Source: Anaerolineaceae bacterium
Lineage (GTDB): Bacteria; Chloroflexota; Anaerolineae; Anaerolineales; Anaerolineaceae
Assembly (NCBI GenBank): GCA_020845515.1
Contig: JADLFQ010000062.1
Coordinates: 1-64,000 of the forward strand
Reading direction: 5' to 3'
DNA length: 64,000 bases
Part shown: positions 12,048-28,667 of the stretch, one piece after another
How the letters are laid out: each line of letters opens with the position of its first letter
Position numbering within the stretch: the first letter of the stretch is position 1
Translations under genes and position numbers: made by a program
The notes under the pieces: model-generated
Seen by the model: only the letters and a program-made list of their open reading frames with translations
What the model was told of the DNA's origin: nothing
The model's database searches: none

Positions 12048-13232
12048 TCAGGAAATGACCCCAAGCTTTTTGCCAATCGCGGCGAAGGTGTTTAAACCTT
12101 TTTCTAAATCTTCGCGGCTGTGGGCAGCGGAAATCATCACACGAATGCGCGCTTTGCCTTTGGGCACGGTTGGATATCCGAGCGACATGGCAAAAACACC
12201 GGCGTCGAAAAGCTCCCGGCTGAACTGTTGCGCTAAAGGTGCTTCACCGAGCATGACCGGGGTGATTGGAGTTGCGCTTTGGCCGGTGTCAAATCCCAGG
12301 CGTTTCATCTCCGATTTGAAAAATCCCGCATTTTCCCAAAGACGATCCACCAGTTCTGTGGAATTTTCTAATAAGTCTATGGCCACAAGGCAGGCCATGA
12401 CATCGGGCGGGGTGGCGGCAGAGGAGAACAAAAAAGGGCGCCCGCGCTGGCGCAGCCAATCAATAATGGCCGCTTTACCTGCGACCGCGCCGCCAACAAC
12501 GCCGAAAGCCTTTGAGAAGGTACCTACTTCGATATCCACCTTTCCGTGCAGGTTGAAATGATCTACAATGCCGCGCCCGCCCTTGCCAACCACACCTTCG
12601 CCGTGCGCGTCATCCACCATTAAAAGGACATTGTGCGCTTCGGTAATCTCATGAATTTTATCCAAGGGTGCAAGATCCCCATCCATGCTGAATACGCCAT
12701 CTGTTACCACCAACCCCCGGCGGTAATTGCCCAGATTTTCCTGGATTTTCTTTTGCAGATCGGCCGGATCAGCGTGAGAAAAACGAATAATTGTTGCGCC
12801 GGAAAGCCGCGATGCATCAATAATGCTGGCATGGTTGAGTTCATCGGAAAAAATGACATCCTCTTTGCCAACAAGCGCCGGCAGCGAAGCCAGGTTGGCG
12901 GCGAATCCGGATTGAAAGGTGAGAGCACTTTCCACGCCTTTGAACTTTGCCAGGCGCTGTTCCAGCTCCAAGTGAATATCCATCGTCCCTGCGATTGAAC
13001 GCACTGCGCCGGGACCGACGCCATAGCGATCTATGGCTTCTTTGGCTGCTTGCACCATGCGGGGGTGGTTTGCCAGCCCAAGATAGTTGTTGGAGCAAAA
13101 ATTAAGTACTTTCTTTCCATCCACGATCAGCCATGCACCTTGGGGAGAGCTGAGGGTGCGGATGCGGTTATATAAACCGGACTGCCGGAGGGCATCCAGT
13201 TCCGCTTGTATCCAATCCAGACGATTTGACAT
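12048..13232 (-). CDS. kbl: Glycine C-acetyltransferase (2-amino-3-ketobutyrate CoA ligase)
   Basis: The 394-residue protein is a PLP-dependent alpha-oxoamine synthase. Kbl cleaves 2-amino-3-ketobutyrate with CoA to glycine and acetyl-CoA in threonine breakdown. Visible marks are [47 protein letters not shown], the Asp-His pair in MVDDAHGEG, the PLP lysine in [13 protein letters not shown], and the C-terminal [19 protein letters not shown]. The length and the [18 protein letters not shown] entry suit Kbl better than 8-amino-7-oxononanoate synthase BioF, though these relatives are hard to separate by eye. No threonine dehydrogenase gene lies alongside. It follows the XPB-like gene by 57 bases. 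Confidence 0.88.
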
Positions 13233-13289
13233 ATGAACCTCGCAGATGATTTGGGGTATGGTGAGTTGCAGGGGGATCTTCCTAAAGGA

Positions 13290-14912
13290 TTATACTCTTT
13301 TTCCAATTATAAGACTGCTGTCACTCAGATAGCCGAGCTCGGCTAAAGCTTTGCGAACGGTTTCTTCGCTTCCGGGTCTCAAGAGCGCTGTTGTGGGATT
13401 CAGGGTTTCCAGAAGAGCGTGGCTGGCTTTTGTTTTTCGGAGGGCTTCAAGGATATCGGGCGAGGCAACCCGTAACAGAACGGCTGGTTGGAGCCCAACT
13501 TGAGAGCCGAATTTGCCCCATCGTTCTACGGCTTGAAGAAGAGCAGGGGGAAGCGGACGGGCGGAGGCGCGCTGAAGCAGTTTGACCAAATGCGCGGCGA
13601 GAAGCCCTTGCTGCTGCGCCTGCTCCAATGAGCCTGGGGTGATGCGATAGAAATAGAATTCGCCGGATTCCTTTTCCCACTCGCAGAACCTGGCGATCTG
13701 GTAGCGCAGGGCACGGGGCGTAAGGGTAGATAATTTGAGCCGATGGCTGGGGAGTATTTCGACTGTCCCGCGTTCCTGTAACAGGGCAGGCGCTTTGCCC
13801 GCCAGCAGGAAATCTGCCCAGGGAGAGAGACGAAAGGCTAAAGGAGCAGAATCCTTCTCTTCACAGGCAAGTTCCGTGATGCCCAGCCAGACGGAGGGCC
13901 CTGTCAAAAAGTAACGCAATAACGCGCCTTCCACTTCCCCCCAACTGGATAGACCTCGCAGAAAGGCATCGCTGCCTCTTTTGCGGATAAACCAGGAATC
14001 GTAATTTCCGGCAGGGCGCTGGAAATCCGTATGCTGTTCACGGATGGCCGTGATGAAGGTGGTAATATTCCACCAAACCCCTTTTGGGAGCCTGGTTATA
14101 AATCCGATGATGGCCTGGCGGGTATGGCGCGGGGCATTTCGCCAATCCCCTTCAAATACTAAACCGGGCGTCAGGAGCAGCTCATTGACCATATCGCTGT
14201 TTTGCCATGCAGTTACCAGTCCGGCAAGCGCTTTGCCGCGAGGTGTTTCCAAGAATTGCCGGGTAGGTTCAGGATATACGCCTCCATCCGGGTGGAGTAA
14301 CCCGGCAGCCGTTAGAACTGCCTGCAGAAAGCCTGCTTTCTCATTCTCATACAGCCTGCCGGTGCGGCGGGCTGCCAGGAAGGTACAGGCATCATCGAGG
14401 ATATGGTCTGAAACTGGAAGAGCATGACGGGTTTCACCGGGCGAGGCCGGCCTGCCTAGCGGGGCGGGCTCTTTCGAGGGCAGAGGGCCGAGCAATTCCA
14501 GCAGATCCTCCGGAATATAGGCATGTTCTTGTGGTTCGGAAGGAAAGTCCAGGAAGGCTGTGCCTATTAATCCCCGATACCACAATACCTCTGCGGGTGA
14601 GATGGGGTTTCTCTGTGGGTGCTCGCGGTCGCGCCGGGCGGCCCCGAAGGTTCGAACATCTCCAAAGCGGCGGCTGAACGCTGCCCAGAGGAGGCGACCT
14701 TCATGCTCCAGCAATGCATGCAGGGCTGCAGCGGCGCCGTCCGGCAGGGCAGCGACAATTTGTGCTGCCAGATCAGCATCCAGCATTGCACTGGTCAAGC
14801 GGGGGAGCGCGCTATAGGTATCCGGGGCGTTCAACTCAATCCCCCAGGCTTCTGCAATAATTCTTAAGAAACCGAGGTCGTGACCCTGGAGGGTGTGGAA
14901 GAGATCGGGCAT
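13290..14912 (-). CDS. XPB/Ssl2 N-terminal-like (Helicase_C_3) protein
   Basis: The 540-residue protein has no helicase motifs. Its C-terminal 200 residues resemble the XPB/Ssl2 N-terminal 'helicase conserved C-terminal 3' domain that occurs without a helicase in Actinobacteria and Chloroflexi. Visible cues are the strand VEILPSHRLKLSTLTPRAL, FYRITPGSLEQAQQQGL, RASARPLPPALLQAVERWG and VLLRVASPDILEAL. The N-terminal half carries repeated LP-rich helices (MLDADLAAQIVAALPDG, ALLEHEGRLLWAAF) suggestive of winged-helix units. A DNA-binding or repair-associated role is plausible but unproved. It is upstream of kbl on the same strand, 57 bases apart. Confidence 0.6.
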   Translation of the reverse strand: MPDLFHTLQGHDLGFLRIIAEAWGIELNAPDTYSALPRLTSAMLDADLAAQIVAALPDGAAAALHALLEHEGRLLWAAFSRRFGDVRTFGAARRDREHPQRNPISPAEVLWYRGLIGTAFLDFPSEPQEHAYIPEDLLELLGPLPSKEPAPLGRPASPGETRHALPVSDHILDDACTFLAARRTGRLYENEKAGFLQAVLTAAGLLHPDGGVYPEPTRQFLETPRGKALAGLVTAWQNSDMVNELLLTPGLVFEGDWRNAPRHTRQAIIGFITRLPKGVWWNITTFITAIREQHTDFQRPAGNYDSWFIRKRGSDAFLRGLSSWGEVEGALLRYFLTGPSVWLGITELACEEKDSAPLAFRLSPWADFLLAGKAPALLQERGTVEILPSHRLKLSTLTPRALRYQIARFCEWEKESGEFYFYRITPGSLEQAQQQGLLAAHLVKLLQRASARPLPPALLQAVERWGKFGSQVGLQPAVLLRVASPDILEALRKTKASHALLETLNPTTALLRPGSEETVRKALAELGYLSDSSLIIGKRV

Positions 14913-15029: not shown

Positions 15030-15058
15030 TTGACGCTCTCTGAGCTTGCCTGTATAAT
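15030..15058 (+). promoter_or_regulatory. Sigma70-like promoter of the PATAN-GTPase operon
   Basis: TTGACG (15030-15035) and a perfect TATAAT (15053-15058) are separated by exactly 17 bases. Transcription would start near 15065, about 30 bases before the ATG at 15096. Confidence 0.8.
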
Positions 15059-15095: not shown

Positions 15096-15908
15096 ATGGC
15101 GCTAAGAGGCAATCTGCGCGATTTTACAGTTACACAGTTATTGAACCTGGTAAGCCTTGCCCAGAAGACGGGAACGCTGGTGATTGAAGGCCCTGGTGAA
15201 GTCGCGAGGGTGGCCTTCCGCGAGGGCAAACTGGTACACGCCCAATTGGGAGAAGAAGTTGGCCTGGCGACGGTTTTACAACGGACGAATAGAATTACGG
15301 TTAACCAGTACCGTATTTTACAAAATCGAGCCAGTGGGATGAGCGACAAGGAATTGGGCCTGCTGCTGATCAACGCGGGGTACCTGTCTCAGAATGATAT
15401 TTTCAACAGTCTACAGCAGTATTCCATTGAGATCATCCGGCGGCTCTTCTCATGGGTGGAAGGGCTCTTTCGTTTCGAGACTGGGGAACTGCCATCGGAA
15501 GATAGGATTCCCATTCGGATTGATCTGGAAAACCTGATTGTTGAGGGGTCACGGCAATTAAAGGAATGGGAGCAACTTCAAGAGGAAATTCCAAGCCTGG
15601 ACATGGCTTTGAAGTTCTCGGAAAGACCGGGGACAAATATCCGCAATATGAATCTCAGCGTCGAGGAATGGCGGGTGGTTTCTTACGTCAATCCCAAAAA
15701 TACAATGCGACAAATCGCCAAGGCAACCAAGATGAATGACCTGGAAATCCGCCGGGTGGTCTACAGTCTGCTGCAGGCGGGTCTGGTGGAGATCATACGG
15801 CAGAGCGGCAGCCCAGTTGTTTTGACCAGCCGGATATTCCCAACGCAAGACCGGCAGGAACAACGCTCCTTGGTGAATCGCCTGATTGACCGGATTAAAT
15901 CAATTTGA
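15096..15908 (+). CDS. DUF4388/PATAN-domain protein
   Basis: The 270-residue protein begins with the PATAN (DUF4388) pattern: MALRGNLRDFTVTQLLNLV, QKTGTLVIEG and the beta strand VARVAFREGKLVHAQLG. A GLLLINAGYLSQNDI segment and a region rich in FSWVEGLFRFETGELP follow. The C-terminal third (VSYVNPKNTMRQIAKATKMNDLEIRRVVYSLLQAGLVEI) looks like a winged helix. PATAN proteins act in phototaxis, gliding and polarity signalling in other phyla, often next to small GTPases. Here an Mgl-like GTPase gene follows by 28 bases, which supports a shared pathway. It is the first gene of an operon reaching 19189 under a strong promoter. Function is inferred. Confidence 0.8.
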   Translation: MALRGNLRDFTVTQLLNLVSLAQKTGTLVIEGPGEVARVAFREGKLVHAQLGEEVGLATVLQRTNRITVNQYRILQNRASGMSDKELGLLLINAGYLSQNDIFNSLQQYSIEIIRRLFSWVEGLFRFETGELPSEDRIPIRIDLENLIVEGSRQLKEWEQLQEEIPSLDMALKFSERPGTNIRNMNLSVEEWRVVSYVNPKNTMRQIAKATKMNDLEIRRVVYSLLQAGLVEIIRQSGSPVVLTSRIFPTQDRQEQRSLVNRLIDRIKSI

Positions 15909-15936
15909 GTTTATCTTCTTTTTAAGGGAAGCGTGT

Positions 15937-16491
15937 ATGCAGACGGTTAAAATCGTGGTAACAGGCCCTTTCAATTCCGGTAAGACTGCTTTTATTCGGT
16001 CAGTTAGTGAAATTGATGTTGTCTCGACGGAGCGAAAGATCTCCTCTGAAGAGGAAAAAGTGAAGGATGCCACCACCGTGGCAATGGATTTTGGCCGGAT
16101 CACCGTGGATAATGACCTGGTATTGTATTTATTTGGCACGCCGGGACAAAGGCGCTTTGACTTCATGTGGGAAATCCTTTCAGAGGGGATGTTAGGTTTT
16201 ATCGTGATGGTAGACAGCACCCGCCCGGAAACATTTCGCGAGGCGCGCAATATTTTGGAAACCTTCCGCGCATACGCACCAACCCCTTATGTGGTGGCGG
16301 CGAACAAACAAGACAGCAAAGACGCCTGGGAATTGGATGACATGCGGGTGGCGCTTCGGCTGGACCCGCACATTAAATTCCTGCCCTGTATTGCGGTCAA
16401 AAAGGAGCCGGTAAAAAAAGTTCTCTTGGAGTTGTTGTATAGCATACTTGCTGAAATGGAGGAGGCCGGGCCTGAGAGGGGCCAGCCTTAA
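15937..16491 (+). CDS. Small Ras-like (MglA-type) GTPase
   Basis: The 184-residue single-domain GTPase shows G1 GPFNSGKT (residues 10-17), a G3 region LFGTPGQRRFDFMWE where Gln replaces the usual order of DxxG as in MglA/SRPRB-like bacterial GTPases, and G4 ANKQDSKD. Such proteins switch between GTP and GDP states to set polarity or assemble signalling complexes; MglA needs a Roadblock partner, which I do not see nearby. The ATG at 15937 follows AAGGGAAGCG; an upstream in-frame start at 15886 overlaps the PATAN gene and is rejected. The next gene begins 9 bases downstream. Confidence 0.85.
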   Translation: MQTVKIVVTGPFNSGKTAFIRSVSEIDVVSTERKISSEEEKVKDATTVAMDFGRITVDNDLVLYLFGTPGQRRFDFMWEILSEGMLGFIVMVDSTRPETFREARNILETFRAYAPTPYVVAANKQDSKDAWELDDMRVALRLDPHIKFLPCIAVKKEPVKKVLLELLYSILAEMEEAGPERGQP

Positions 16492-16500
16492 AACGTCTGC

Positions 16501-17289
16501 GTGTCCTCAATTACCACCGACCAAGGGATTGTACATTACGAGGTATATGGCAAAGGGCGGCCGGTTATTTTGCTGCACGGCTGGTTGGGTTCGTGGGGTT
16601 TGTGGCAGGAAACCATGACTTTTCTAGGGCAGTACTACCGCACCTATGCTTTGGATTTTTGGGGTTTTGGAGAATCGGGGAAGAAACGCAGCACGTATGC
16701 GGTTCAAGATTTTGTGGCTCTGGTGAACCAGTTTATGGACCAGCTTGGTATTATGGAAGCGCCTTTGGTAGGGCATAGCATGGGCGGAACAGTCAGTCTT
16801 GCGACGGCGATGCGCCACCCCGATCGTGCCTCCAAGGCGGTGATCATCGGTTCTCCGGTTACCGGCTCTTCGTTGGCAATACCTCTTAAGATGGCTGGCA
16901 AGCGCTTCATTGCACATGTTATTTTTAACCAGATGGGGTTGTTCCGGTGGGGCATGCGGTTTGCCTCCCCGTTTATTTGCAAAGACCCGCGCTTTCCGGA
17001 TATGATGGATCGAGATTTGTCTAAAACAACGCTGGAATCTTTTTTGATCAGCATTGCGAGCTTGCGTCAAACCGATCTGCGCCCCCACTTGAGCGAACTC
17101 AATATACCGGTGATGGGGATGTTCGGCAACCGGGATAATATTGTCAGCCCGAAGCAGTGGAAAGCCTTGAAAGAGCAACTTCCCCGGGCGCGCATTGAAC
17201 GATACAAAAATGCCGGTCATTTCATCATGTTGGACGAACCCCGGCATTTTATGCTCACTTTGAAAGAATTTTTGGATACGGCTGTGTAA
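16501..17289 (+). CDS. Alpha/beta-hydrolase with intact catalytic triad
   Basis: The 262-residue alpha/beta-fold hydrolase has an oxyanion region LLHGWLGSWGLW, nucleophile elbow GHSMGG with Ser93, an acid in MFGNRDNIVSP and a His in KNAGHFIMLDEP. It therefore looks catalytically competent, as an esterase or lipase of unknown substrate. Start is GTG at 16501, 9 bases after the GTPase stop. It has a close paralogue of almost equal length at 27555-28346, which has lost the nucleophile. It lies inside a signalling operon, so a regulated hydrolysis step or a scaffold role is possible. Confidence 0.87.
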   Translation: MSSITTDQGIVHYEVYGKGRPVILLHGWLGSWGLWQETMTFLGQYYRTYALDFWGFGESGKKRSTYAVQDFVALVNQFMDQLGIMEAPLVGHSMGGTVSLATAMRHPDRASKAVIIGSPVTGSSLAIPLKMAGKRFIAHVIFNQMGLFRWGMRFASPFICKDPRFPDMMDRDLSKTTLESFLISIASLRQTDLRPHLSELNIPVMGMFGNRDNIVSPKQWKALKEQLPRARIERYKNAGHFIMLDEPRHFMLTLKEFLDTAV

Positions 17290-17293
17290 AACG

Positions 17294-17908
17294 ATGATGA
17301 AATCAGATTGCGATCCAGTTAACAATCTTTATCGGGCGATGATTGAGGGGGTGAGCGAAATCATTGGCACGGCGGGCATGACCGCCGTGGAAAACAGCCG
17401 CGCCTCCCAAGAAGAAAAACTTCCACCTGAAGCTGCAAAAGAACAGCCCATTGACCAACTGGTTTCGTGGATGGCTGCGCTGGAGCAGGTTTTTGGTGTG
17501 CGTGCCGGCGAGGGAATTGCACTTCGCGGCGGAAGAAACTCTTTTCTCTATTTGACGCGGACCACAGAACTGGGGACGACGTTTTCAGCCATGATGAAAA
17601 GGTTGCTGCCAGCCTCGGCACGCATTAAAAACGGGTTGGAAATTCTTGCGGGGAGTGTTGCTCAGGAAACCGGCTTGGAAGTGGAGGTGATAGAAAAGGC
17701 CGAGCATTGGAACTGGCAGATGCCTGATTGTTTTAGCGCTTCGAGCAGCGGAGGGCAAAATGTTGCCCGCTATTTTTTGATTGGCTTGCTGGAAGAATTT
17801 ACCGCCTGGGTGAGCGGGGGGCGGCATTTTAACATCAGCGAGGGGGAAGGCGGCTCTGCTGGCGCGGGAGTCTGCCTGATCCAGATCAACAAGCAGCCAA
17901 TGGATTAA
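17294..17908 (+). CDS. V4R (4-vinyl reductase) domain protein
   Basis: The 204-residue protein ends in the pattern of V4R domains, small-molecule binding modules found in XylR-type regulators and bacteriochlorophyll enzymes. Cues are WQMPDCFSASSSG, a helix RYFLIGLLEEFTAWVSGG, the strand HFNISEGEGG and the terminal GAGVCLIQIN. One of the usual domain cysteines (DC) remains, while the terminal Cys-rich site is reduced. The N-terminal half (PIDQLVSWMAALEQVFGVRAGEGIALRGGRNSF) matches the typical entry helix and loop. It sits 4 bases after the hydrolase gene, so it is probably the ligand sensor of the operon; this is inferred. Confidence 0.6.
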   Translation: MMKSDCDPVNNLYRAMIEGVSEIIGTAGMTAVENSRASQEEKLPPEAAKEQPIDQLVSWMAALEQVFGVRAGEGIALRGGRNSFLYLTRTTELGTTFSAMMKRLLPASARIKNGLEILAGSVAQETGLEVEVIEKAEHWNWQMPDCFSASSSGGQNVARYFLIGLLEEFTAWVSGGRHFNISEGEGGSAGAGVCLIQINKQPMD

Positions 17909-17911
17909 AAG

Positions 17912-19189
17912 ATGCTGAAGGTTATTCTTCCTTCTTATCGTTCTATAGCGCCTTTCAATGAAACTGCCAGAGATTTGCGCATTCAAAACAAACCTTTGTG
18001 GTTGTACCAGCGCGATGTGCTGCTGCCCTATACCGAGCGGGAGATAGAACTGCCGATTGGATCGCCGCTTCCGCAAACACGGGAAGCCTGCCTGGTATAC
18101 CGTGACAATCTGGTATTTGACGCGCCGTTTTTTGATGCTTTCATTCGGGAAGCCCGCCGGAAAAAAGTGGCTTCGCGCGCTGCATTTTCCATCGCGGATC
18201 CCGCCTTTCGTGAACATTGTCTGCCGCTTTCCGCCTCATACACACCGGCAGGCGATATTTACCTGGCGGATATGTGGTACTACCCGCATGGGCCGCAGTC
18301 CGATGTAGAGCCTTTGGTTGTGGATATGCAGGCGCGCGAAATTGGTTATTACCATATTCCAACCTATATGGCGGTTGAATCGGGCGACCTGGTATATCAG
18401 GTGCCGCTGCGCAGTATGATCGCTATTGACACCTGGGTGCATGTTTTTATCGCCGATATGGTTTTTGGGCTGTTTGGCCGCGGAGCGCGCTTTGAAGAGC
18501 GATTAAAGAAAGATCCGATCTTTAAGATTGGAATCTTGGCCCAGGCGCTCTATGAGGGCAAACAAGTACTGGAATGCTCAAAGGTGGTCAGCATAGGGAA
18601 GGGATGCGTGATAGACCCTACTGCAGTTATTCATGGCCCGACTACCATCGGAGATCACGTTACGATTGGTGCTGGGGCGGTGATTGAAAACTGTATCATT
18701 GGAGATAACGTCAATATTTCTCAAGGGTGTGAATTGATGCTCTCAGTGGTGGGCGACGGTACCTTTCTGCCATTTCGGGCGTCTTTGTTTATGACAACGA
18801 TTATGGACAACAGCATGGTTGCGCAAAATACCTGCCTGCAAATGTCCGTTGTTGGGCGCAATTCCTTTATTGGCGCAGGCAATACGTTTACCGACTTCAA
18901 CTTACTTTCCGCACCGCTCAGGGCGCGCGATGCCGCTGGTGAGCTGAGGATGTCCAACCGGCCGGTTTTGGGTGGGTGTGTCGGCCATAACTGCAGAATT
19001 GGGTCGGGTATGATCATTTATCCCTCCCGGATGATTGAATCGGATGTGATCCTGGTGGCTTCTGAGAAGCGGCGGGTGATTATGCATGATGTGTCATACG
19101 AAGAAAGCGACCATCATACTCTCTCGATCTCCGAGAAGCCCCCCCGCCTCTACCCTCGCCCCGGAGAGAGAATTACTGAGAGTTGGTAG
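17912..19189 (+). CDS. GlmU-like left-handed beta-helix protein
   Basis: The 425-residue protein has a C-terminal hexapeptide-repeat left-handed beta-helix (about residues 220-360): VSIGKGCVIDPTAVIHGPTT, IGDHVTIGAGAVIENCIIGD, NVNISQG, then VVGRNSFIGAGNTF and GHNCRIGSGMIIYPS. The N-terminal 210 residues look like a degenerate nucleotidyltransferase-type fold (VYRDNLVFDAPFFDAF, PLVVDMQAREIGYYHIP), without clear nucleotide-binding motifs. Such proteins act as acetyl- or nucleotidyltransferases, or as scaffolds. It is the last gene of the PATAN operon, 3 bases after the V4R gene. Transfer activity is unproved. Confidence 0.6.
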   Translation: MLKVILPSYRSIAPFNETARDLRIQNKPLWLYQRDVLLPYTEREIELPIGSPLPQTREACLVYRDNLVFDAPFFDAFIREARRKKVASRAAFSIADPAFREHCLPLSASYTPAGDIYLADMWYYPHGPQSDVEPLVVDMQAREIGYYHIPTYMAVESGDLVYQVPLRSMIAIDTWVHVFIADMVFGLFGRGARFEERLKKDPIFKIGILAQALYEGKQVLECSKVVSIGKGCVIDPTAVIHGPTTIGDHVTIGAGAVIENCIIGDNVNISQGCELMLSVVGDGTFLPFRASLFMTTIMDNSMVAQNTCLQMSVVGRNSFIGAGNTFTDFNLLSAPLRARDAAGELRMSNRPVLGGCVGHNCRIGSGMIIYPSRMIESDVILVASEKRRVIMHDVSYEESDHHTLSISEKPPRLYPRPGERITESW

Positions 19190-19257
19190 TTATTGTCAGA
19201 TGGGTCACTTTCACGTATGATTAAACAAGCGTTTGATTAAGAAAAAAGAGAACCTGT

Positions 19258-19285
19258 TTGTTCTGCGAACAGCAGTTGATATGCT
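19258..19285 (+). promoter_or_regulatory. Possible promoter with overlapping inverted repeat
   Basis: The palindrome TGTTCTGCGAACA (19259-19271) overlaps TTGTTC (19258-19263), which is 16 bases before TATGCT (19280-19285). This could be an operator on the -35 region of the response-regulator gene at 19315. The match to consensus is weak. Confidence 0.3.
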
Positions 19286-19314
19286 TATTTTTAGGATGAT
19301 GTGGGGAGGCTTTT

Positions 19315-20205
19315 ATGGCGATTGCGCGTCTTTTGATTGTGGAAGATGATTTTGATATCTCCAACATGCTACAGATTTATTTTTCAAGCCAGGGATTTGA
19401 AGTTGATGTCGCTTCGCGCGGACGGCAGGCATTGGAGAAAACACGCCAGGGTTTGCCGAACGTGATCATTCTGGATATTATGCTGCCGGATATTGATGGG
19501 TATGAAGTTTGCCGCACCTTGCGAACGAACACACGCACCAGCCATATCCCGGTGATTTTTCTGACTCAAAAGGATGAACGCAGCGACAAATTGCAAGGGC
19601 TGGAATTGGGCGCGGATAATTACATCACCAAGCCTTTTGACATTGAAGAATTGAAATTGTATGTACAAAATGCAATTTCCCGTTCGGAGCGCGAGAGCCT
19701 TACTGATCCACAATCCGGCCTGCCTGCCGGGCGGCTGATTGAAGACCAACTGCGAAAAATGATCCGGCAAAAGGGCTGGGCTTTTATGGATATTCGGATC
19801 AACGGTTTTGAGGCTTTTAAAGATGTGTACGGGTTTATTGCCGGAACAAATGTTCTGCGGTTTACTGCCATCGTACTTGGGGAGGTTGTGGACGAAATGG
19901 GCGGGCCGGAAGACTTTATTGGGCACGCCGGCGGAGATAATTTTGTCTTGATCGTACAGGAAGCCAACGAAGAAAACCTCAAGCGGCGTTTGAAAGAGAG
20001 ATTTAAGGAAGAGGTGTTGACACACTATAACTTCATGGACCGCCAGCAGGGCTATTTACATACACCGGATGAAAATGGCGGAATGCGAAAGAATCCGCTG
20101 ATGTCGCTGGCAATTGGGATGGTTACGCCGACTATGCATACTTTTTCAGATATCCGCGAGATAACGGAACTGGCTGCGGAAGCGCGCCGCCAGGACGCAG
20201 GGTAA
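19315..20205 (+). CDS. Response regulator with degenerate GGDEF domain
   Basis: The 296-residue protein has an N-terminal receiver domain with acidic pocket EDD (residues 10-12), phosphoacceptor Asp54 in IILDIMLPD, Thr in IFLTQKDER and Lys in ITKPFD. A C-terminal domain resembles GGDEF diguanylate cyclases (DPQSGLPAGRLIEDQL, MDIRINGFEAFKDVYG), but the signature reads GGDNF (residues 206-210) instead of GGDEF, replacing the catalytic Glu position. It is therefore unlikely to make c-di-GMP and may instead bind nucleotide. It precedes the giant kinase by 22 bases and is probably its output or a co-regulator. Confidence 0.85.
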   Translation: MAIARLLIVEDDFDISNMLQIYFSSQGFEVDVASRGRQALEKTRQGLPNVIILDIMLPDIDGYEVCRTLRTNTRTSHIPVIFLTQKDERSDKLQGLELGADNYITKPFDIEELKLYVQNAISRSERESLTDPQSGLPAGRLIEDQLRKMIRQKGWAFMDIRINGFEAFKDVYGFIAGTNVLRFTAIVLGEVVDEMGGPEDFIGHAGGDNFVLIVQEANEENLKRRLKERFKEEVLTHYNFMDRQQGYLHTPDENGGMRKNPLMSLAIGMVTPTMHTFSDIREITELAAEARRQDAG

Positions 20206-20227
20206 AGCAAGAAAGATCGAGCTCATC

Positions 20228-23200
20228 ATGACCATTGGCCCTTTCGGCTTGGGAAGCGCTTTGATACTCTTGGCGTTGCTCCTTCTGGGAGGAGCATGGG
20301 AGCTGACGCGCAGGATTGCCGCCCCGCGCGCGGCGAGACGCGCGCCGCTGATGGGGCAAATTGAAAGCGCGGCAGGCCCGCATGAGGCACTTTTAGTGGT
20401 TCAACAGGGGGGGCACCTGATGAGCATGAACAGTACCGCATGCGCTTTCTTTCACGTGCCGGAGAATGAAACCCCCAACCTGGAACAGTTGGCAAGAAGA
20501 ATCAGGCCGGGGGATGCATTTCTGGGCTTATGTGCTGCGGAAGGGCAGGGCCGTTTTTACCTGGATGGGCGGCCTGTGGAAGGCAAATCTTACCGTATTG
20601 CCAGTGAAACTGGTTTCGTGTATCTGGTTCTTTTGAATCTGGCAGAAGAGGGGGACTCTTCTGAGACGCTGGGTGCTTTAAAAAGCCGCGAGATATTGCA
20701 AACGTTTACTCGATTTACCCAGGAGATTGCAGCCAGCCTTGATCTGGAATCAACCTTGCAGTCCATTCTTGATAATTTTGAAAGCCTGATTCTCGCGGAT
20801 TTTATTGAAATCACCCTGTGGGAGCCAGCCTCTGAACGGCTTGTTCCATACCGCTTCCTGCCGAATGCGGCGCTCGAGCGCAAGTTGGAGCCGGCAGGGG
20901 ACGGCTACACTCTGGAAGAAGGATATGCCGGCTTTATTGCCCGTGAACGAAAGCCGCTATTGATACCCAATGTTCTGGAATTCACGGCAGTTCAGTCGGC
21001 ATTTGATCGGGTATCCATACCGATACGTTCTTTCCTGGGTGTCCCTTTGCTGGTAGGACAGGAATTGATCGGAACGCTTGAGCTTGGCTCGTTGGTTACA
21101 GGAGCGTATCAAGCGAGCGACCTCGAACTGGTCAATTTAATCTCCGGTCAGGCGGCTATTGCCATTCATAATGCCAGGCTGTACAGCGACGAGCAACGCC
21201 GGACAGTTGAACTTGCTGGTCTGGCACAGTTAGCTCAAGCAGTTGGAACCGCAACAGACTCGCAGGGTTTGTATACCCGGCTGGTTGACAGTATTGTGCC
21301 GCTTGTGAATGCTGAAGTGGTGGGTTTTTTGTTGTTCCAGGAAAGCCAGCGTTCACTGGTGGGGCGGACACCTTTCTACGGCTTGCCAATGCAGTTCGTG
21401 GAACTTTATCACGTCAATATCACACCCGGCAGCCAGGCAGAGGAGTTGATCACTGCACAGCAATTGATCGTCTCTCAGAATGCGGCGGAAGATCCATACT
21501 GGGAGACGTTAGGCCTGGCTTATTTGGCGCAAGCTGCCAGTATGCGCGAGAGCGTTCTGGCTCCTTTGACGGCAGGCGGCAGAATGCTGGGATATTTACA
21601 GGTTTCAAACCACCGGGGGAGCAGCACCCCCTTTAACGAAGAAGAGATCAGATTGTTGACGATTGTCGCGAATCAGGCTGCTCCAATCATCGAAAACTTT
21701 ACCTTGATCACGCAAACCCGAATGCGCGCCCAACGTGCTGAAGCCTTGCGCCGGATCGCCAGCCTTGCTTCTTCGGCGGCCACACTGGACGAGGTGCTGC
21801 AATTTTCGTTACAAGAAATGGCGCACTTGTTAAAAGCAGATGTGGCTGCATCTTTTCTTGTTGACCACTCCCGTATTTCTCTTCAAATTCATTCACCCTC
21901 GCTTTTTGGCAAAGCAGATTTTCCCTCAGAGCAGACTGTCAGCCTGCTGGTGGATGATCCTCAGTACCCTTTTACTGCTGCGGGCAGCCAACATAACCTC
22001 TTGCTGGAGTACAGGAACTCCGGCAAACCTGTCATCCCTTTTTACCAACAGATTATGGCAGAATGGGGGTTGGAATCGGTTTTGATGGTTCCTCTTATCG
22101 TGCGGGATAATGGGATTGGGGAGATTTGGATTGCAAGTCATTCACCAAGTTTTTTTGATCAGAACGATCTTCAAATACTCTCCACAGCGGCTGGTCAGTT
22201 GGCTGGTGTGGTGGAGCGCTCCTATTTGCTCGGGCAGACTGATGAAAAGCTGCGGCGGCGGGTGGATCAGCTTACCGCGTTAACACGCATCAGCCGGGAA
22301 CTTTCCGCCTCGCTCAATCTTGATTCTCTCCTCCAGCTTGTTTATGACGAAGCGATTAGAACTACACGGGCGGACTGCGGTTCTATCGTATTATTCGATT
22401 TGAACCGCCCGGCGGAGGAAGCGCCGCGCATCCGCTATCTGGTGGGCGAACATAGCGCTTTGGAACTCTCATCTTTTGAACTGGAGATACTGGAGAAGGG
22501 AGAGCCTTTTTTATGCGTTGATGTGTCTGGTCTGGAGGCGCCGCTCCCACATAAAGGTGTGGCTGGCTTGATGATTGTGCCAGTTCATTATCAGGAGCAG
22601 CGTGCAGGCCTGATTTTACTGCATACAAAAACGCCCGATAAGTTTGACCTTTCTTCCCTGGAGATTGCTCAATCTTTGGCAGCACAAGCAACGGTTGCAT
22701 TTGGAAATGCCATCCAGTATGAACAGCAAACCCTGCGAAATGAGTTGCTAAGGCGGGAAGTGGACACGTTGGGGGAACTCTTTAAGGTTTTCGGTGAACT
22801 AAGACAAGATCATTCCCTGGAAGAAGCGCTTCAAGTGATTGCACAGGCGATTCAGCAAGCGACACTCTTCCGTACGGTGGTAATTAGCACTTACGATGAA
22901 GAAACAGGTTCCCTGCGGCGGATGGTTTGCCTGGGCCTTTCTGAAGAAATTTGGCGAGAAATGTGCGCGCACCCACCGCAGTGGAACAGTATTTCCCAAG
23001 CCTTCGAAGAGCGCTTTAAGGTGGGAGGAGTTTATTTTATTCCGGCTGACCATCTTTCGGTGATTCCCTACGACGTTCAAACCTTTGTGGTGCTTGACCC
23101 TGTTGAGGCGCCGCCGCCGGAATTATGGAATCCGGATGATTTGTTGCTGGTGCCGCTGTTTAATGCAGACCAGAAACCCTTAGGGTTAATCAGCGTGGAT

Positions 23201-26200
23201 GCACCGGTAACCGGGAAGAGACCGGACCAACCCGTTTTTGAAGCGTTGGATCTTTTTGCCTTGCAGACAGGCCTTGTAATTGACAATCACCGGCAAATAG
23301 GTTCGATGATGCACCGCTTGCAATCCGCAGAGAGCGGCGCGGGGCGACTTGAGCAGTCCATCGCCGATATCCGGCAAAGCCAGCCGATGCTTTTGCGTAA
23401 AGACCTTGAACAGACCGTTACCATTCACCGTCTGCAAGGTCTTTTGGAACGGATGCGTTCGAGCATGGATATTGCAGTTTTAGCCGGACAACAGGCAGAT
23501 ATGGATCAGATCTTATTCACTGTTGCCAGCGAAATCCTGGAAAGATTTGATCTTAAAACTGCCCTATTAGCAGAGACGTCCGCATCAGGGCCGCATCTCT
23601 TTAAAGTAATTGGAAATGTTCCCTCCGGCGCCAACCTGGATGCGCTTTTTGGCCAACATAACCCGCTGAGGCAAGTAATTCAAGGAAAAGAACTGCTGCT
23701 GGCCGCCACGCTGGATAAATTTCCGGAATGGAAAAATAACTCTTTGCTAAGTGCGCTGGGAGCGCGCTCTTATCTTGGACTCCCGCTTGTGCTTGGAGAG
23801 GAGCGGCTGGTTGGCATTCTGGCGGTTGGAAACATACCCTTACCTGCATTTACTGTGGAAGATGAACAGGTATTAAACCGGCTAAGCGTACTGGTTGGGG
23901 TGGCGCTGCAAAATCTTGAACTGCTCAACCGCATGCGCAGCCGCGTGCAGGAACTCGATCTTTTAATTTCCTTCAGCCGCCGGCTTGCCGGTTTAGACCC
24001 CGATGGAATTCTAAACATTCTCCTGGAAACGCTTTTGCAGGCTATCCCGGAGGCGAGCGCTGGGTGGGTGAGTTTGTGGAATGGCAACGCGGCATGCCTG
24101 GAAGTCCAGACTGCTTCAGGCTATCAGGACAACCCCAGCCTGATAGGAATCCAGCTTTGCCAGGAAGAGGAAGCCAAAGCAGTTGCTTTGCCTTTGCGCG
24201 TGTTTTCCAGTGGCCGGCCGGTACGCGTTGCCGAGATCCAATTCGCGCGTGATTACGTCTTATCGCCGGAGGATTTGCTTTTATATCGCCAGGCAACTGG
24301 AGGAAAATTGCCGGTTTCCAGCTTGATCATTCCTCTTCGCCTGGGGGAGAGAATACTGGGTGTAACTGTTTTGGATAATTTCTTTCGGAGCGCAGCTTTC
24401 TATGAACAGAGTGAACTGCTGGCACAATCTCTGATACAGCAAGCTGCACTGGCTCTGGAGAACGCGCGTTTGGTTTATTCCACCGAACAACGCGCCTCTC
24501 AACTTCAGGCGCTCACCCGTGTGGCGGGGACGATCACCTCGAATTTGCGCAGTGATAAACTGGTGGAGTCCTTGTTAAATGAACTTAAATCGGTTCTACC
24601 CTATGAGACGGCAACATTATGGCTGCGCAGAGAGGAACGCCTGACAATTGCGGCTGTCAGCGGTTTTGAAGATAAAGAAACGCGCGTGGGAATTTCCCTC
24701 AACATTGAAGACAGCCCGCTTTTTCAGGAGATGATCACAACTGGCCTGCCGATTGACATTGCCGATGTTCGTAATGACGACAGGTTCCCTGCGGCAGGCC
24801 ACCACGATTGCCTTTCCTGGCTGGCTGTACCACTGATTACGAAGGCCGAACTCATGGGTGTCCTGGCATTGGAGAAGTTGGAGGCGAAGTTTTACACCAA
24901 TGAGCATATCCAACTGGCTGCCACATTTGCCGGACAAGCGGCAATATCACTGGAGAATGCACGTTTGTTTGAAGAAAGTAACCGCCGGACGGCAGAGCTT
25001 GATCAGCGCTCCCAACGCCTGGCGTTGCTTAATCGCTTCTCAAGTGCGGTGGGCAGCACGTTGGATGTAGACCAGGTGCTCAAACTGGCTGTTCAACAAT
25101 TGCAGCAGGCTCTGAATTGTTCGCGGGCGGCGATGATTTTATTAAATGAAAATGCGGAAGCAGCGGTATATGCGGAAAGACCGCCTACAGGGCAGATGCT
25201 TCCAATCGTATTACCTTTTTCTCCACTTTTGGAGCGGCTGCGGGAAACGCAAGGGATTTTCAGTATCACCGATGTGAGGACTGAGCCTGACCTTGTAACT
25301 CTAATGGGCGATTATTTTGAAACGCGGCAGACGGTTTCCGTTTTATTTGTGCCGCTGATCGCTGGGGCGGCGCTGATCGGTTGGACTTGTTTGCAAACAG
25401 AAACACCCCACCATTTTTCCCTTTCCGAAATTGAATTGGCGCGCACAATTAGCAATCAGACTGCTATTGCGGTGCAAAACGCGCGGCTGTATGCCGAAAC
25501 CCGATCATTGACAACCGATTTGGAGAAAAGAGTATCAGAACGCACACTTGAACTTCGCCGGGAGCATCAGAATACGGATGCACTGCTTCGAATTATCACG
25601 GAATTATCAGCCAGCTTGGATATGGATCAGGTACTCAGCCGGACATTGGGGGTCTTGGATGAAACGCTTGGCGCAGAACAAGGCCTGATACTGGCACACG
25701 ACAACCCGCGCGTGTATCGTTCCGGTTTTTCGCTTGGAGAAGCTGAGGAAGCTGAACTGGAAAGCCTTGCCAGGAATATTTCTGAGCGTGTAACCCAGAG
25801 CAAAAGCACAGTGGTGGTGAGTGATTTAGCCAATGATGGGGGTGGGTGTTTTGAAGTTATTAAGAACCCGGCATATCTGAGTGTGCTTGCAGCGCCGCTC
25901 ATTGTGGGAGAGGAAATACTGGGCGCCTTGCTTTTGCTCCACCGGAAAAGAGCGGCATTTCTGCCAGAGCAGGTGGGGGTTATTGAGGCCGCTGCCAAGC
26001 AGATTAGTGTAGCCCTGAAGAATGCTGAGCTGTTCAGCCTGATTCGTGACCAGTCCGAAAATTTGGGGGTGTTGTTCCGAGAGCAGGAACTAGAAGCCAA
26101 CCGGTCGCGTGGTATCCTGGAAGCTGTTGCGGACGGTGTGCTGGTAACTGATTCGGATGTGAAGATTACCTTGTTCAACGCTTCAGTAGAGCGCATTTTG

Positions 26201-27172
26201 AGGTTGCGGGCGAACGAAGTAATTGGAGAATCCTTGGAGCAACTTGATACTTTATTCGGGAAAACGAATAGCACCTGGCTGAGTACGATCCAACGCTGGT
26301 CGGAAGATCCCTCAACTTGCGAGCCGGGTGAGGTTTATGCCGAGCAGGTTGAATTAGAAAGCGGTACGATCCTGGCAATCCGGTTGGCGCCGGTGGTGTT
26401 GCGTTCTATATTTATGGGGACGGTTTCAATCTTTCGCGATATTACCCGCGAAGTACAGATAGACCGTATGAAAGCGGAGTTTATTGCGAATGTCAGCCAT
26501 GAGCTGCGCACACCGATGACCTCCATTAAGGGGTATGTTGATGTGATGCTGATGGGCGCCTCAGGGGAATTGAGCAGCCAACAAAAGCGATTTCTTAATA
26601 TTATTAAGACCAACACCGAGCGTCTGGGTATCCTGGTGAATGATTTGCTGGATGTCTCCCGGATTGACTCCGGACGGCTTAGTCTTAGTATTGCTCCTGT
26701 TCGAATTCCTGAATTAGCAGCAGAAGTTGTTGCTGATATCTCCCGGCGTTCTCGTGAAGAAAATAGAGAGATTCAGATCTCGATTGATGCCCAGCCGGAT
26801 TTGCCGCCTGTTTTTGCGGATGCAGACCGGGTGCGTCAGATTCTGGATAATCTGATTCGCAATTCTTATTACTACACCCCGGAAGGGGGGCGGGTGGCCG
26901 TGGAAATCGGCATGTTGGATCATGAACTTCGTATAGATATTGCTGATTCGGGAATTGGGATCGCGCCGAAAGATCAGCGCCGCATTTTTGAGCGGTTCTT
27001 CCGCGGCAACGACCCGCTGGTATTGGCAACAGCAGGAAATGGCCTCGGATTGGCGCTTTCAAAAACGTTGGTGGAAATGCACGGCGGAAGAATTTGGTTT
27101 GAGAGCAGCGGCGCAACAGGAGAAGGAGCAACGTTTTCCTTTACCCTGCCGTTAGATTCGCCGAAGGAATAG
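20228..27172 (+). CDS. Giant hybrid-less sensor histidine kinase with ten GAF domains
   Basis: The 2314-residue protein begins with one hydrophobic segment (about residues 5-25). GAF-like repeats recur with a shared pattern (L..I...L.A.L.LD..L at entry, QAAIAIHNARLY at exit) and I count ten: roughly 150-318, 325-495, 507-668, 682-835, 850-1028, 1080-1238, 1243-1415, 1425-1585, 1598-1758 and 1784-1940. A PAS domain (GVLVTDSDVKITLFNASVERIL, about 1964-2070) follows. HisKA has the phosphoacceptor His2091 in SHELRTPM, and HATPase_c has the N-box DNLIRNSYYY, DSGIGIAPKDQRRIF and GNGLGLALSKTLVEMHGG. Upstream and downstream response regulators flank it. The ligand set is unknown. Confidence 0.9.
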   Translation: MTIGPFGLGSALILLALLLLGGAWELTRRIAAPRAARRAPLMGQIESAAGPHEALLVVQQGGHLMSMNSTACAFFHVPENETPNLEQLARRIRPGDAFLGLCAAEGQGRFYLDGRPVEGKSYRIASETGFVYLVLLNLAEEGDSSETLGALKSREILQTFTRFTQEIAASLDLESTLQSILDNFESLILADFIEITLWEPASERLVPYRFLPNAALERKLEPAGDGYTLEEGYAGFIARERKPLLIPNVLEFTAVQSAFDRVSIPIRSFLGVPLLVGQELIGTLELGSLVTGAYQASDLELVNLISGQAAIAIHNARLYSDEQRRTVELAGLAQLAQAVGTATDSQGLYTRLVDSIVPLVNAEVVGFLLFQESQRSLVGRTPFYGLPMQFVELYHVNITPGSQAEELITAQQLIVSQNAAEDPYWETLGLAYLAQAASMRESVLAPLTAGGRMLGYLQVSNHRGSSTPFNEEEIRLLTIVANQAAPIIENFTLITQTRMRAQRAEALRRIASLASSAATLDEVLQFSLQEMAHLLKADVAASFLVDHSRISLQIHSPSLFGKADFPSEQTVSLLVDDPQYPFTAAGSQHNLLLEYRNSGKPVIPFYQQIMAEWGLESVLMVPLIVRDNGIGEIWIASHSPSFFDQNDLQILSTAAGQLAGVVERSYLLGQTDEKLRRRVDQLTALTRISRELSASLNLDSLLQLVYDEAIRTTRADCGSIVLFDLNRPAEEAPRIRYLVGEHSALELSSFELEILEKGEPFLCVDVSGLEAPLPHKGVAGLMIVPVHYQEQRAGLILLHTKTPDKFDLSSLEIAQSLAAQATVAFGNAIQYEQQTLRNELLRREVDTLGELFKVFGELRQDHSLEEALQVIAQAIQQATLFRTVVISTYDEETGSLRRMVCLGLSEEIWREMCAHPPQWNSISQAFEERFKVGGVYFIPADHLSVIPYDVQTFVVLDPVEAPPPELWNPDDLLLVPLFNADQKPLGLISVDAPVTGKRPDQPVFEALDLFALQTGLVIDNHRQIGSMMHRLQSAESGAGRLEQSIADIRQSQPMLLRKDLEQTVTIHRLQGLLERMRSSMDIAVLAGQQADMDQILFTVASEILERFDLKTALLAETSASGPHLFKVIGNVPSGANLDALFGQHNPLRQVIQGKELLLAATLDKFPEWKNNSLLSALGARSYLGLPLVLGEERLVGILAVGNIPLPAFTVEDEQVLNRLSVLVGVALQNLELLNRMRSRVQELDLLISFSRRLAGLDPDGILNILLETLLQAIPEASAGWVSLWNGNAACLEVQTASGYQDNPSLIGIQLCQEEEAKAVALPLRVFSSGRPVRVAEIQFARDYVLSPEDLLLYRQATGGKLPVSSLIIPLRLGERILGVTVLDNFFRSAAFYEQSELLAQSLIQQAALALENARLVYSTEQRASQLQALTRVAGTITSNLRSDKLVESLLNELKSVLPYETATLWLRREERLTIAAVSGFEDKETRVGISLNIEDSPLFQEMITTGLPIDIADVRNDDRFPAAGHHDCLSWLAVPLITKAELMGVLALEKLEAKFYTNEHIQLAATFAGQAAISLENARLFEESNRRTAELDQRSQRLALLNRFSSAVGSTLDVDQVLKLAVQQLQQALNCSRAAMILLNENAEAAVYAERPPTGQMLPIVLPFSPLLERLRETQGIFSITDVRTEPDLVTLMGDYFETRQTVSVLFVPLIAGAALIGWTCLQTETPHHFSLSEIELARTISNQTAIAVQNARLYAETRSLTTDLEKRVSERTLELRREHQNTDALLRIITELSASLDMDQVLSRTLGVLDETLGAEQGLILAHDNPRVYRSGFSLGEAEEAELESLARNISERVTQSKSTVVVSDLANDGGGCFEVIKNPAYLSVLAAPLIVGEEILGALLLLHRKRAAFLPEQVGVIEAAAKQISVALKNAELFSLIRDQSENLGVLFREQELEANRSRGILEAVADGVLVTDSDVKITLFNASVERILRLRANEVIGESLEQLDTLFGKTNSTWLSTIQRWSEDPSTCEPGEVYAEQVELESGTILAIRLAPVVLRSIFMGTVSIFRDITREVQIDRMKAEFIANVSHELRTPMTSIKGYVDVMLMGASGELSSQQKRFLNIIKTNTERLGILVNDLLDVSRIDSGRLSLSIAPVRIPELAAEVVADISRRSREENREIQISIDAQPDLPPVFADADRVRQILDNLIRNSYYYTPEGGRVAVEIGMLDHELRIDIADSGIGIAPKDQRRIFERFFRGNDPLVLATAGNGLGLALSKTLVEMHGGRIWFESSGATGEGATFSFTLPLDSPKE

Positions 27173-27176
27173 GTGC

Positions 27177-27554
27177 ATGGCAAAAATATTGATTGCAGAA
27201 GATGAACCGGATATTCGAGATTTGGTGGCTTTCACTTTGCGTTTTGCAGGGCATGAAGTTGTGGCCGTAACCAATGGTATGGAAGCACTGCTTTCCACAT
27301 CTGAAGAAATGCCCGATTTGGTTGTTTTGGATGTGCGCATGCCGCAAATGACCGGGTATGAAGCCTGCCGCCGGATCAAAGCTGACCCGGCGACCAGGGA
27401 TATTCCGGTCATCTTTCTTTCTGCAAAAGGCCAGGAAAGCGAGATCAACGAAGGGCTGGCGGCAGGAGCATACGATTACTTGTTAAAACCGTTTGGGCCG
27501 GATGAACTTGCCCAGCGGATCGGTGAACTGCTGCGGGAATTTGGAAAAAGTTAA
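27177..27554 (+). CDS. Single-domain response regulator (CheY-like)
   Basis: The 125-residue receiver domain has the acidic pair EDE (residues 8-10), phosphoacceptor Asp52 in VVLDVRMP, Ser in FLSAKGQE and Lys in LLKPFGPDE. It carries no output domain. Its ATG lies 4 bases after the kinase stop, so it is very likely phosphorylated by the giant kinase and acts as a diffusible output or phosphate sink. The next gene starts directly at the base after its stop codon, indicating coupled expression. Confidence 0.93.
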   Translation: MAKILIAEDEPDIRDLVAFTLRFAGHEVVAVTNGMEALLSTSEEMPDLVVLDVRMPQMTGYEACRRIKADPATRDIPVIFLSAKGQESEINEGLAAGAYDYLLKPFGPDELAQRIGELLREFGKS

Positions 27555-28346
27555 ATGAGTGTCATTGTTCTTAGGCCAGGGATTATACATTATGAAGTCC
27601 TGGGGCGCGGCCGCCCGGTAATTTTTCTGCATGGGTGGGTGGGCTCGTGGCGGTATTGGATGTCCACCTTGCAAGCTGCTTCTACAACCTACCGGGCTTA
27701 CGCACTGGATCTATGGGGGTTTGGTGAAAGCGCAAAAAATCCCCAGCAGTATGGCTTGGACCAGCAGGCAGCGCTCTTGGATAGTTTTCTCAATGAAGTG
27801 GGGATTGGCCGGGTGGCGCTGGTTGGCCATGGTTTGGGAGCACTGGTTGCCTTATCGTTTTCGCTGCAGCATCCGGAAATTGTAGACCGTGCGATGGCGA
27901 TTTCCTGCCCTGTGGGGGAGGGCGCGATTGCCCCCCGTTTTCGTACGAGCGACCTGACTGCATTAGCCGATTGGCTGATGCCCGGCGACGCTGCACTGAC
28001 TGAATCATCCCGCCTCGATGCAATCAAGGCAGATATTGCAGCGCTGCATACATCCTTGGGCGATCTGCCTGCTGCGACAATAAAGCATATTTGGGAGCGA
28101 TCTTCGCTGGCGTGTTTGTGGGTGCACGGGAAAAATGACCCTGTTATTTCGGCACCTTCCGTGGAAATGCTTAACAAACTACCTGAACATGCCCACGCTA
28201 TTCTTCTTGAAGAATCGGGACATTTCCCGATGCTGGAGGAATCCAGTAAATTCAACCGCTTGTTGATGGATTTCTTGAATCTTTCATCGGGGGAGAGCCC
28301 GCGCCAGCTTCAACTCAAAGAGGAATGGAAACGCCGGGTGCGGTGA
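27555..28346 (+). CDS. Alpha/beta-hydrolase pseudoenzyme (nucleophile Ser93 replaced by Gly)
   Basis: The 263-residue protein aligns end to end with the hydrolase at 16501: both start with GI(V/I)HYEV-G-GRPVI-LHGW, share YALD(F/L)WGFGES, and keep an Asp (HGKNDPVISAP) and a His (ESGHFPMLEE). The elbow, however, reads GHGLG, so residue 93 is Gly where the paralogue has Ser93 (codon GGT at 27834-27841 region). A serine hydrolase mechanism is thus ruled out unless another residue substitutes. It likely binds a ligand or partner. It follows the single-domain regulator without a gap. Fold is clear; function is unknown. Confidence 0.85.
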   Translation: MSVIVLRPGIIHYEVLGRGRPVIFLHGWVGSWRYWMSTLQAASTTYRAYALDLWGFGESAKNPQQYGLDQQAALLDSFLNEVGIGRVALVGHGLGALVALSFSLQHPEIVDRAMAISCPVGEGAIAPRFRTSDLTALADWLMPGDAALTESSRLDAIKADIAALHTSLGDLPAATIKHIWERSSLACLWVHGKNDPVISAPSVEMLNKLPEHAHAILLEESGHFPMLEESSKFNRLLMDFLNLSSGESPRQLQLKEEWKRRVR

Positions 28347-28628: not shown

Positions 28629-28640
28629 ACACCTGCTTTT

Positions 28641-28667
28641 TACCCTCCCCGGTGGAGGGTATTTTTT
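28641..28667 (+). terminator. Riboswitch terminator overlapping the thiN start region
   Basis: TACCCTCC (28641-28648) pairs with GGAGGGTA (28654-28661) over the loop CCGGT, followed by TTTTTT (28662-28667). The GGAGGG in its right arm is also the only ribosome site for the ATG at 28668, so the same stem blocks both elongation and initiation when TPP is bound. Confidence 0.9.

Follow-up and report, generated by a model that had tools for sequence, protein, structure and literature searches.

A nine-gene locus in an Anaerolineaceae bacterium probably encodes one co-inherited signalling system of the Chloroflexota, in which a ligand-controlled MglA/MglB-type switch would be combined with a phosphorelay and with a small unit of acyl/ester chemistry. 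The locus lies within a stretch of 64,000 nucleotides (hereafter the window; positions 1 to 64,000 of JADLFQ010000062.1, assembly GCA_020845515.1), itself part of the contig we call C62, in a genome of 2.95 Mb that is 85% complete. An earlier note, made from this DNA alone, had described nine genes packed into two runs, and we confirmed both the open reading frames and the gaps between them. Run A extends from the PATAN gene to that of a left-handed beta-helix protein (LbH; 15096-19189), and run B from a receiver/GGDEF gene to a second hydrolase gene, HYD2 (19315-28346). Domains were assigned with Pfam and equivalogs with NCBIfam. Pfam bore out the domain calls already made (DUF4388/PATAN, GTPase, hydrolases, beta-helix, receivers and GAF kinase), and NCBIfam returned no close equivalog for any of the nine window proteins. 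The features of the locus are:

15030-15058, forward strand: promoter-like site TTGACG-17-TATAAT upstream of PATAN, 11 of 12 matches
15096-15908, forward strand: PATAN/DUF4388 protein of 270 aa (Pfam DUF4388, 95.7 bits) with a C-terminal winged-helix-like part
15937-16491, forward strand: MglA-family small GTPase (Pfam Ras/Arf/ATP_bind_1); reading frame open from TTG 15886
16501-17289, forward strand: HYD1, alpha/beta hydrolase with an intact triad (Pfam, alignment)
17294-17908, forward strand: V4R-type protein, cysteine motif mostly lost (alignment, AlphaFold model)
17912-19189, forward strand: LbH, left-handed beta-helix with a nucleotidyltransferase-like N-terminal domain (Pfam hexapeptide, Foldseek, alignment)
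19190-19314, forward strand: gap of 125 bp where most relatives have an acyl-ACP-reductase-like (AAR) gene
19315-20205, forward strand: receiver with degenerate GGDEF domain, GGDNF (Pfam, GGDEF weak)
20228-27172, forward strand: giant GAF-repeat and PAS histidine kinase of 2314 aa (Pfam GAF, PAS, HisKA, HATPase)
27177-27554, forward strand: single-domain receiver (Pfam, 105.8 bits) with conserved Asp and Lys motifs
27555-28346, forward strand: HYD2, alpha/beta hydrolase-fold protein without nucleophile, GHGLGA (alignment)

Conservation of the gene order and linkage of the two runs

The order PATAN-GTPase-HYD1-V4R-LbH-[AAR]-receiver/GGDEF-GAF kinase-receiver-HYD2 recurs, whole or in part, in more than 100 Chloroflexota loci; the earlier note had proposed looking for such conservation across Anaerolineae. 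The promoter-like site upstream of PATAN is likewise aligned and conserved in most relatives. The recurrence of the order and the conserved promoter together argue that the cluster did not arise by chance. Of the 98 PATAN upstream regions compared, 68-72% contain a near-consensus promoter versus 0-3% in shuffles, and 68% reach 11 of 12 matches versus 0% in shuffles. Such a promoter is almost never found upstream of GTPase, HYD1, LbH or HYD2.

Our survey of the host class, which consists mostly of filamentous bacteria, covered 150 genomes. About 50 of them carry full LbH orthologues (45-68% identity), and the 20-kb loci around these show the same gene order, often with one or two extra receivers 3' of the kinase. 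A wider scan with one genome per species yielded 422 relatives. All of the best 80 belong to Chloroflexota, most of them under the name Anaerolineae, and keep the order up to their contig ends; they place the system in cultured genera, represented by Levilinea saccharolytica, Ornatilinea apprima, Bellilinea caldifistulae, Thermanaerothrix daxensis and Anaerolinea thermolimosa. In L. saccharolytica (NZ_LGCM01000042.1; L072/L073) a single contig carries the entire locus twice, in opposite orientations; the copies do not differ over 17 kb or more and may reflect a real duplication or an assembly artefact.

The earlier note had missed a tenth gene. Between LbH and the receiver/GGDEF gene, about 1.1 kb of additional sequence is present in most relatives and encodes the 360-aa AAR protein, which is absent from the locus in the window. 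No AAR gene was found elsewhere in the genome, which is 85% complete as assembled.

The single-system reading would have been in difficulty if related genomes carried these genes in unrelated places or did not inherit the runs together. Instead, runs A and B are contiguous in most relatives, and at least 20 family-level groups have retained the two jointly. Taking LbH and the receiver/GGDEF gene as one marker per run, we counted 50/1/1/98 genomes (both/first only/second only/neither, as in all counts below; shared ancestry uncorrected). In the sole LbH-only genome (G127) the receiver/GGDEF gene is split in two pieces, and the sole genome with the receiver/GGDEF gene only (G109) is 73% complete.

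The two runs might instead be neighbouring but independent operons, one for the GTPase and acyl chemistry and the other an ordinary two-component system, held close by vertical descent. We regard this as rather unlikely, and it does have evidence on its side. The runs are separate in the families f12 and f21 and in locus L084, and other Chloroflexota classes have LbH with run B but no PATAN or GTPase at the locus. Moreover, the window has a weaker promoter-like site (19193-19221) in its 125-bp gap between LbH and the receiver/GGDEF gene. The case for a strong second promoter at this place in AAR-less loci is weak, as only 12% of them reach 10 of 12 matches. On the other hand, the run markers occur together in 50 of the 52 genomes that have either, unlinked cases included; f12 and f21 retain both runs, although these form two separate blocks there. 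Where AAR is intact, the LbH-AAR and AAR-receiver/GGDEF gaps have medians of 3 and 12 bp, which speaks against independence. LbH is also common to both arrangements: because its partner is run A in f12 but the receiver/GGDEF-kinase run in the other classes, it bridges the two runs.

Several further observations weigh against a single system. The co-occurrence counts carry no correction for shared ancestry, and in AAR-less loci the runs are 13-565 bp apart, so that separate transcripts are possible. PATAN and the GTPase do not adjoin LbH in other classes. The system is also patchy, LbH being absent from 7 of 9 other same-family genomes sampled. Finally, signals from the kinase and receivers could go to different targets.

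The GTPase switch, its Roadblock partner and the V4R protein

For the GTPase the most likely start codon is ATG 15937, not TTG 15886. The P-loop, GTPGQ and NKQD motifs are invariant in 103-106 relatives, and the G2 stretch is of the ETT/DTT type, with TT in 103-104 of 104, which puts a Thr where Group 1 MglA proteins have an Arg. MglA Groups 2-5 are described as having GTPGQ in G3 and a Thr that replaces the intrinsic Arg of Group 1 beside the G2 Thr (PMC4316618). With GTPGQ present in 106/106 relatives and MglA (3t12, 4e-6) among the PDB relatives, the MglA-type identity put forward in the earlier note is supported in kind.

A GTPase of this kind would be expected to have a regulator, which that note had missed. 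We identified an MglB-type Roadblock/LC7 protein with PF03259 matches, mostly encoded away from the locus and, in the window genome, outside it. GTPase and Roadblock genes occur together almost without exception (68/2/1/79), as do GTPase and PATAN genes (68/2/2/78), again with shared ancestry uncorrected; PATAN orthologues are present in 70/150 genomes. The PATAN protein itself has weak Pfam HTH matches at residues 199-237. In a few genomes the Roadblock gene does lie at or near the locus: it is inside it in L168, adjoins the GTPase gene in L152 and L157, and separates the GTPase gene from HYD1 in G013 and G049. Locus L115 has a Roadblock-V4R-receiver/GGDEF cassette directly upstream of PATAN. 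The window genome has a similar cassette on another contig (C23:1-1463; L162), composed of Roadblock, a V4R gene that retains most of its cysteine motif, and a receiver/GGDEF-type receiver gene truncated at the end of the contig.

Genomes that lack LbH retain a PATAN-GTPase-V4R core, plus Roadblock in some. A similar core is found on plasmid pTB1 of Thermus brockianus (L175), in a DUF4388-GTPase-protoglobin-protoglobin-like-roadblock-protoglobin-EAL cluster. PATAN, GTPase, Roadblock and a ligand-binding protein thus appear to form the ancestral module. The plasmid cluster shares with our locus the PATAN-GTPase-Roadblock core beside ligand-sensor proteins; it differs in having protoglobins, which are heme-sensor-type proteins, instead of V4R and a cyclic di-GMP enzyme instead of the pseudo-GGDEF/kinase arm.

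The link between PATAN and MglA/MglB genes has been noted before (PMC4316618, with reference to Makarova 2006); some Group 1 and Group 5 MglA genes lie near PATAN genes, and Group 5 is reported in Chloroflexi (PMC4316618). Our GTPase thus resembles Groups 2-5 in its G3 and G2 motifs, its co-inherited Roadblock and its adjacent PATAN gene. In contrast to them, it shares a long and conserved operon with the genes for V4R, LbH, AAR, the hydrolases and the GAF kinase, while its Roadblock is mostly encoded elsewhere.

Given these partners, a polarity or type IV pilus control system may be considered, as for PATAN and MglA proteins in cyanobacteria and Myxococcus. PATAN receivers act on cyanobacterial pilus motors (PMC7690835), MglA/MglB has a role in polarity (PMC4316618), and two genes for T2SSE-family ATPases are present in the window genome. 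However, these ATPases can be placed to family only, not to pilus type, they are far from the locus, and the locus holds no pilus or motor gene. We therefore consider this explanation doubtful.

The V4R-like protein of the earlier note was upheld as to its fold. The AlphaFold model (pLDDT 90) has an H-NOX/TRAPPC3/V4R-type fold, with Z scores of up to 12.7 to H-NOX and, over about 140 residues, of 11.2 to TRAPPC3 and 11.1 to Bet3, values that alone cannot separate these sister folds. Relatives L152 and L154 exceed the Pfam V4R cut-off, and L106 falls just below it. The copy in the window, on the other hand, is degenerate: it has no Pfam match, shares 19-36% identity with aligned relatives, and has lost most of a metal-type cluster of five cysteines, each of which is kept in 61-76 of 89 relatives. 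A V4R profile gave no match among PDB sequences, and a search for V4R on plasmids was also without match. We rejected the idea that cysteine integrity tracks the presence of AAR, as the association (Fisher p 6.5e-4) comes down to about 1 informative pair after correction for the tree.

The genetic link between GTPase and V4R at this locus is solid. V4R domains have been proposed to bind hydrophobic ligands (PMC2253512). In Asgard archaea, a study of small GTPases that also took in TRAPPC3/V4R and Roadblock proteins found that the genes generally lie outside operons (PMC10933270); here, instead, the link is made by gene order. One could go further and propose a TRAPP-Rab-like bacterial arrangement, in which the V4R/TRAPPC3-fold protein and Roadblock would jointly control the Ras-like GTPase, with an acyl-derived ligand made by AAR, HYD1 and LbH and read by HYD2 and the GAF kinase. 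We put this forward as a tentative idea with a rather small chance of being right.

The kinase arm and the proposed acyl/ester chemistry unit

The giant kinase had been credited with ten GAF domains; Pfam gives nine stretches above threshold. Its H box and N/G boxes are conserved in most relatives. In the receiver/GGDEF protein the phospho-acceptor Asp is present in 104/104 relatives. The GGDEF motif was correctly read as broken: it is GGDNF in the window, and in 102 relatives the fourth residue is N (72), D (24) or another (6), and never E. On this failure of the GG[DE]EF motif we rejected an active diguanylate cyclase.

We also compared this arm with the actinobacterial conservon/AGPS (CvnA-D), a set of four genes in which a CvnC-type domain is found beside a kinase, a Roadblock protein and a GTPase (PMC13343842, PMC4316618). 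Both have a histidine kinase, a Roadblock protein and a GTPGQ-type GTPase as one set, and accessory GAF proteins occur in conservons. Our locus differs in its two receivers and its giant GAF-repeat kinase. Membership was rejected, since none of the nine proteins has a CvnC-type Pfam domain and the window locus has no Roadblock gene.

The "paired hydrolases" of the earlier note are indeed two alpha/beta hydrolases by Pfam, but only one of them is an intact enzyme. The HYD1 triad is invariant, with Ser in 109/109 aligned relatives and Asp and His in 110/110. HYD2 has a residue other than Ser at the nucleophile position in 51/58 (Gly 43, Asp 3, Ala 3, Thr 2; Gly in the window), while its Asp and His are kept in 52/54 and 53/54. 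With 31% identity to HYD1 and a separate clade, HYD2 is an ancient paralogue of it. An active-looking hydrolase and a dead one are paired here in one signalling operon, of which the locus is a clear example from nature.

As in RsbQ-PAS modules, an alpha/beta hydrolase gene stands beside that of a sensor protein, which in those modules can be a histidine kinase (PMC3183031). RsbQ-type modules, however, have an intact hydrolase triad, a hydrolase gene immediately upstream and the PAS domain most N-terminal in the partner (PMC3183031), whereas HYD2 lies downstream of the kinase and the PAS domain of the latter occupies residues 1958-2075 of 2314. We rejected an RsbQ-type identity of HYD2 on account of its missing nucleophile.

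In LbH, the N-terminal domain has a sugar nucleotidyltransferase-like fold, without the usual glycine-rich signature in the alignment. Foldseek matched it to GMPPA/GMPPB, ST0452 and RmlA (1e-5 to 1e-3), with a model that is confident at residues 1-145 only. On their sequence features, HYD2, the GGDEF domain and LbH look like binding proteins made from enzymes.

AAR is matched best by the PigE reductase domain and by the acyl-ACP reductase of cyanobacteria (PDB 4ppm and 6jzq). It shares with them an invariant catalytic-type Cys (67/67) and a conserved nucleotide-binding glycine motif; it differs in having no fused aminotransferase and in falling below NCBIfam equivalog cut-offs (123.6 bits against TIGR04058, long-chain acyl-ACP reductase, cut-off 449.7). 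A second AAR-like family in class genomes, 35-43% identical to that of the locus, is found in open frames of about 500-900 aa and is probably fused to another domain.

AAR is never seen without LbH (LbH/AAR, 46/5/0/99). Its presence changes state 16 times on the LbH tree, at least 10 times on supported branches, and mostly by loss; recognisable fragments persist between LbH and the receiver/GGDEF gene in four relatives (L110, L121, L128 and L143). From the tree and these remnants we conclude that AAR loss has been recent and repeated.

This bears on the alternative of a mainly biosynthetic operon, in which AAR, LbH and HYD1 would synthesise or modify an acyl-derived product, either an envelope lipid or an aldehyde, and the regulators would only time or place it. 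The likeness of AAR to acyl-ACP reductase and to the PigE reductase domain, the conserved Cys, the invariant HYD1 triad and the LbH fold would all fit. We nonetheless find it improbable, because AAR has been lost repeatedly while all regulators remain, LbH and HYD2 look like degenerate enzymes, and the sensory part makes up most of the coding length.

Proposed pathway, precedents and neighbouring features

In the single signalling system that we favour, Roadblock would set the nucleotide state of the GTPase, the V4R protein may provide a hydrophobic-ligand input to this switch, and PATAN may serve as adaptor or effector. The kinase would sense through its GAF and PAS domains, perhaps with HYD2 as a ligand-binding pseudo-hydrolase, and would phosphorylate the lone receiver and the receiver/pseudo-GGDEF protein, both feeding the same GTPase switch. 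HYD1, LbH and AAR could handle the ligand itself, an acyl- or ester-type molecule, by producing it, altering it or breaking it down.

To our knowledge, prokaryotic Ras-like GTPases are mostly without known inputs and outputs. Here, a long set co-inherited across a class connects one of them with a V4R-fold protein, with a kinase arm and with a small and specific unit of chemistry. Our literature searches, which covered open-licence papers, found no description of this gene set. The closest record is for Anaerolinea thermolimosa, in which DUF4388, GTPase, hydrolase and beta-helix genes (GAP05454-GAP05458) are listed beside a nitrite reductase gene (PMC8756737, appendix). They are part of the same gene set but are given there as context, not as a system (PMC8756737).

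Upstream of the locus, at 12048-14912 of the window, are minus-strand genes for a 2-amino-3-ketobutyrate ligase-like protein and a 540-aa protein, both kept upstream in closer relatives. Downstream, a hairpin followed by a T run (28634-28661) lies directly 5' of a thiamine-pyrophosphokinase-like gene at 28668 and may be a terminator or a leader element. Further along, two look-alike lipoprotein-type genes (60214-61353 and 62830-63942) stand on either side of an amidohydrolase-like gene.

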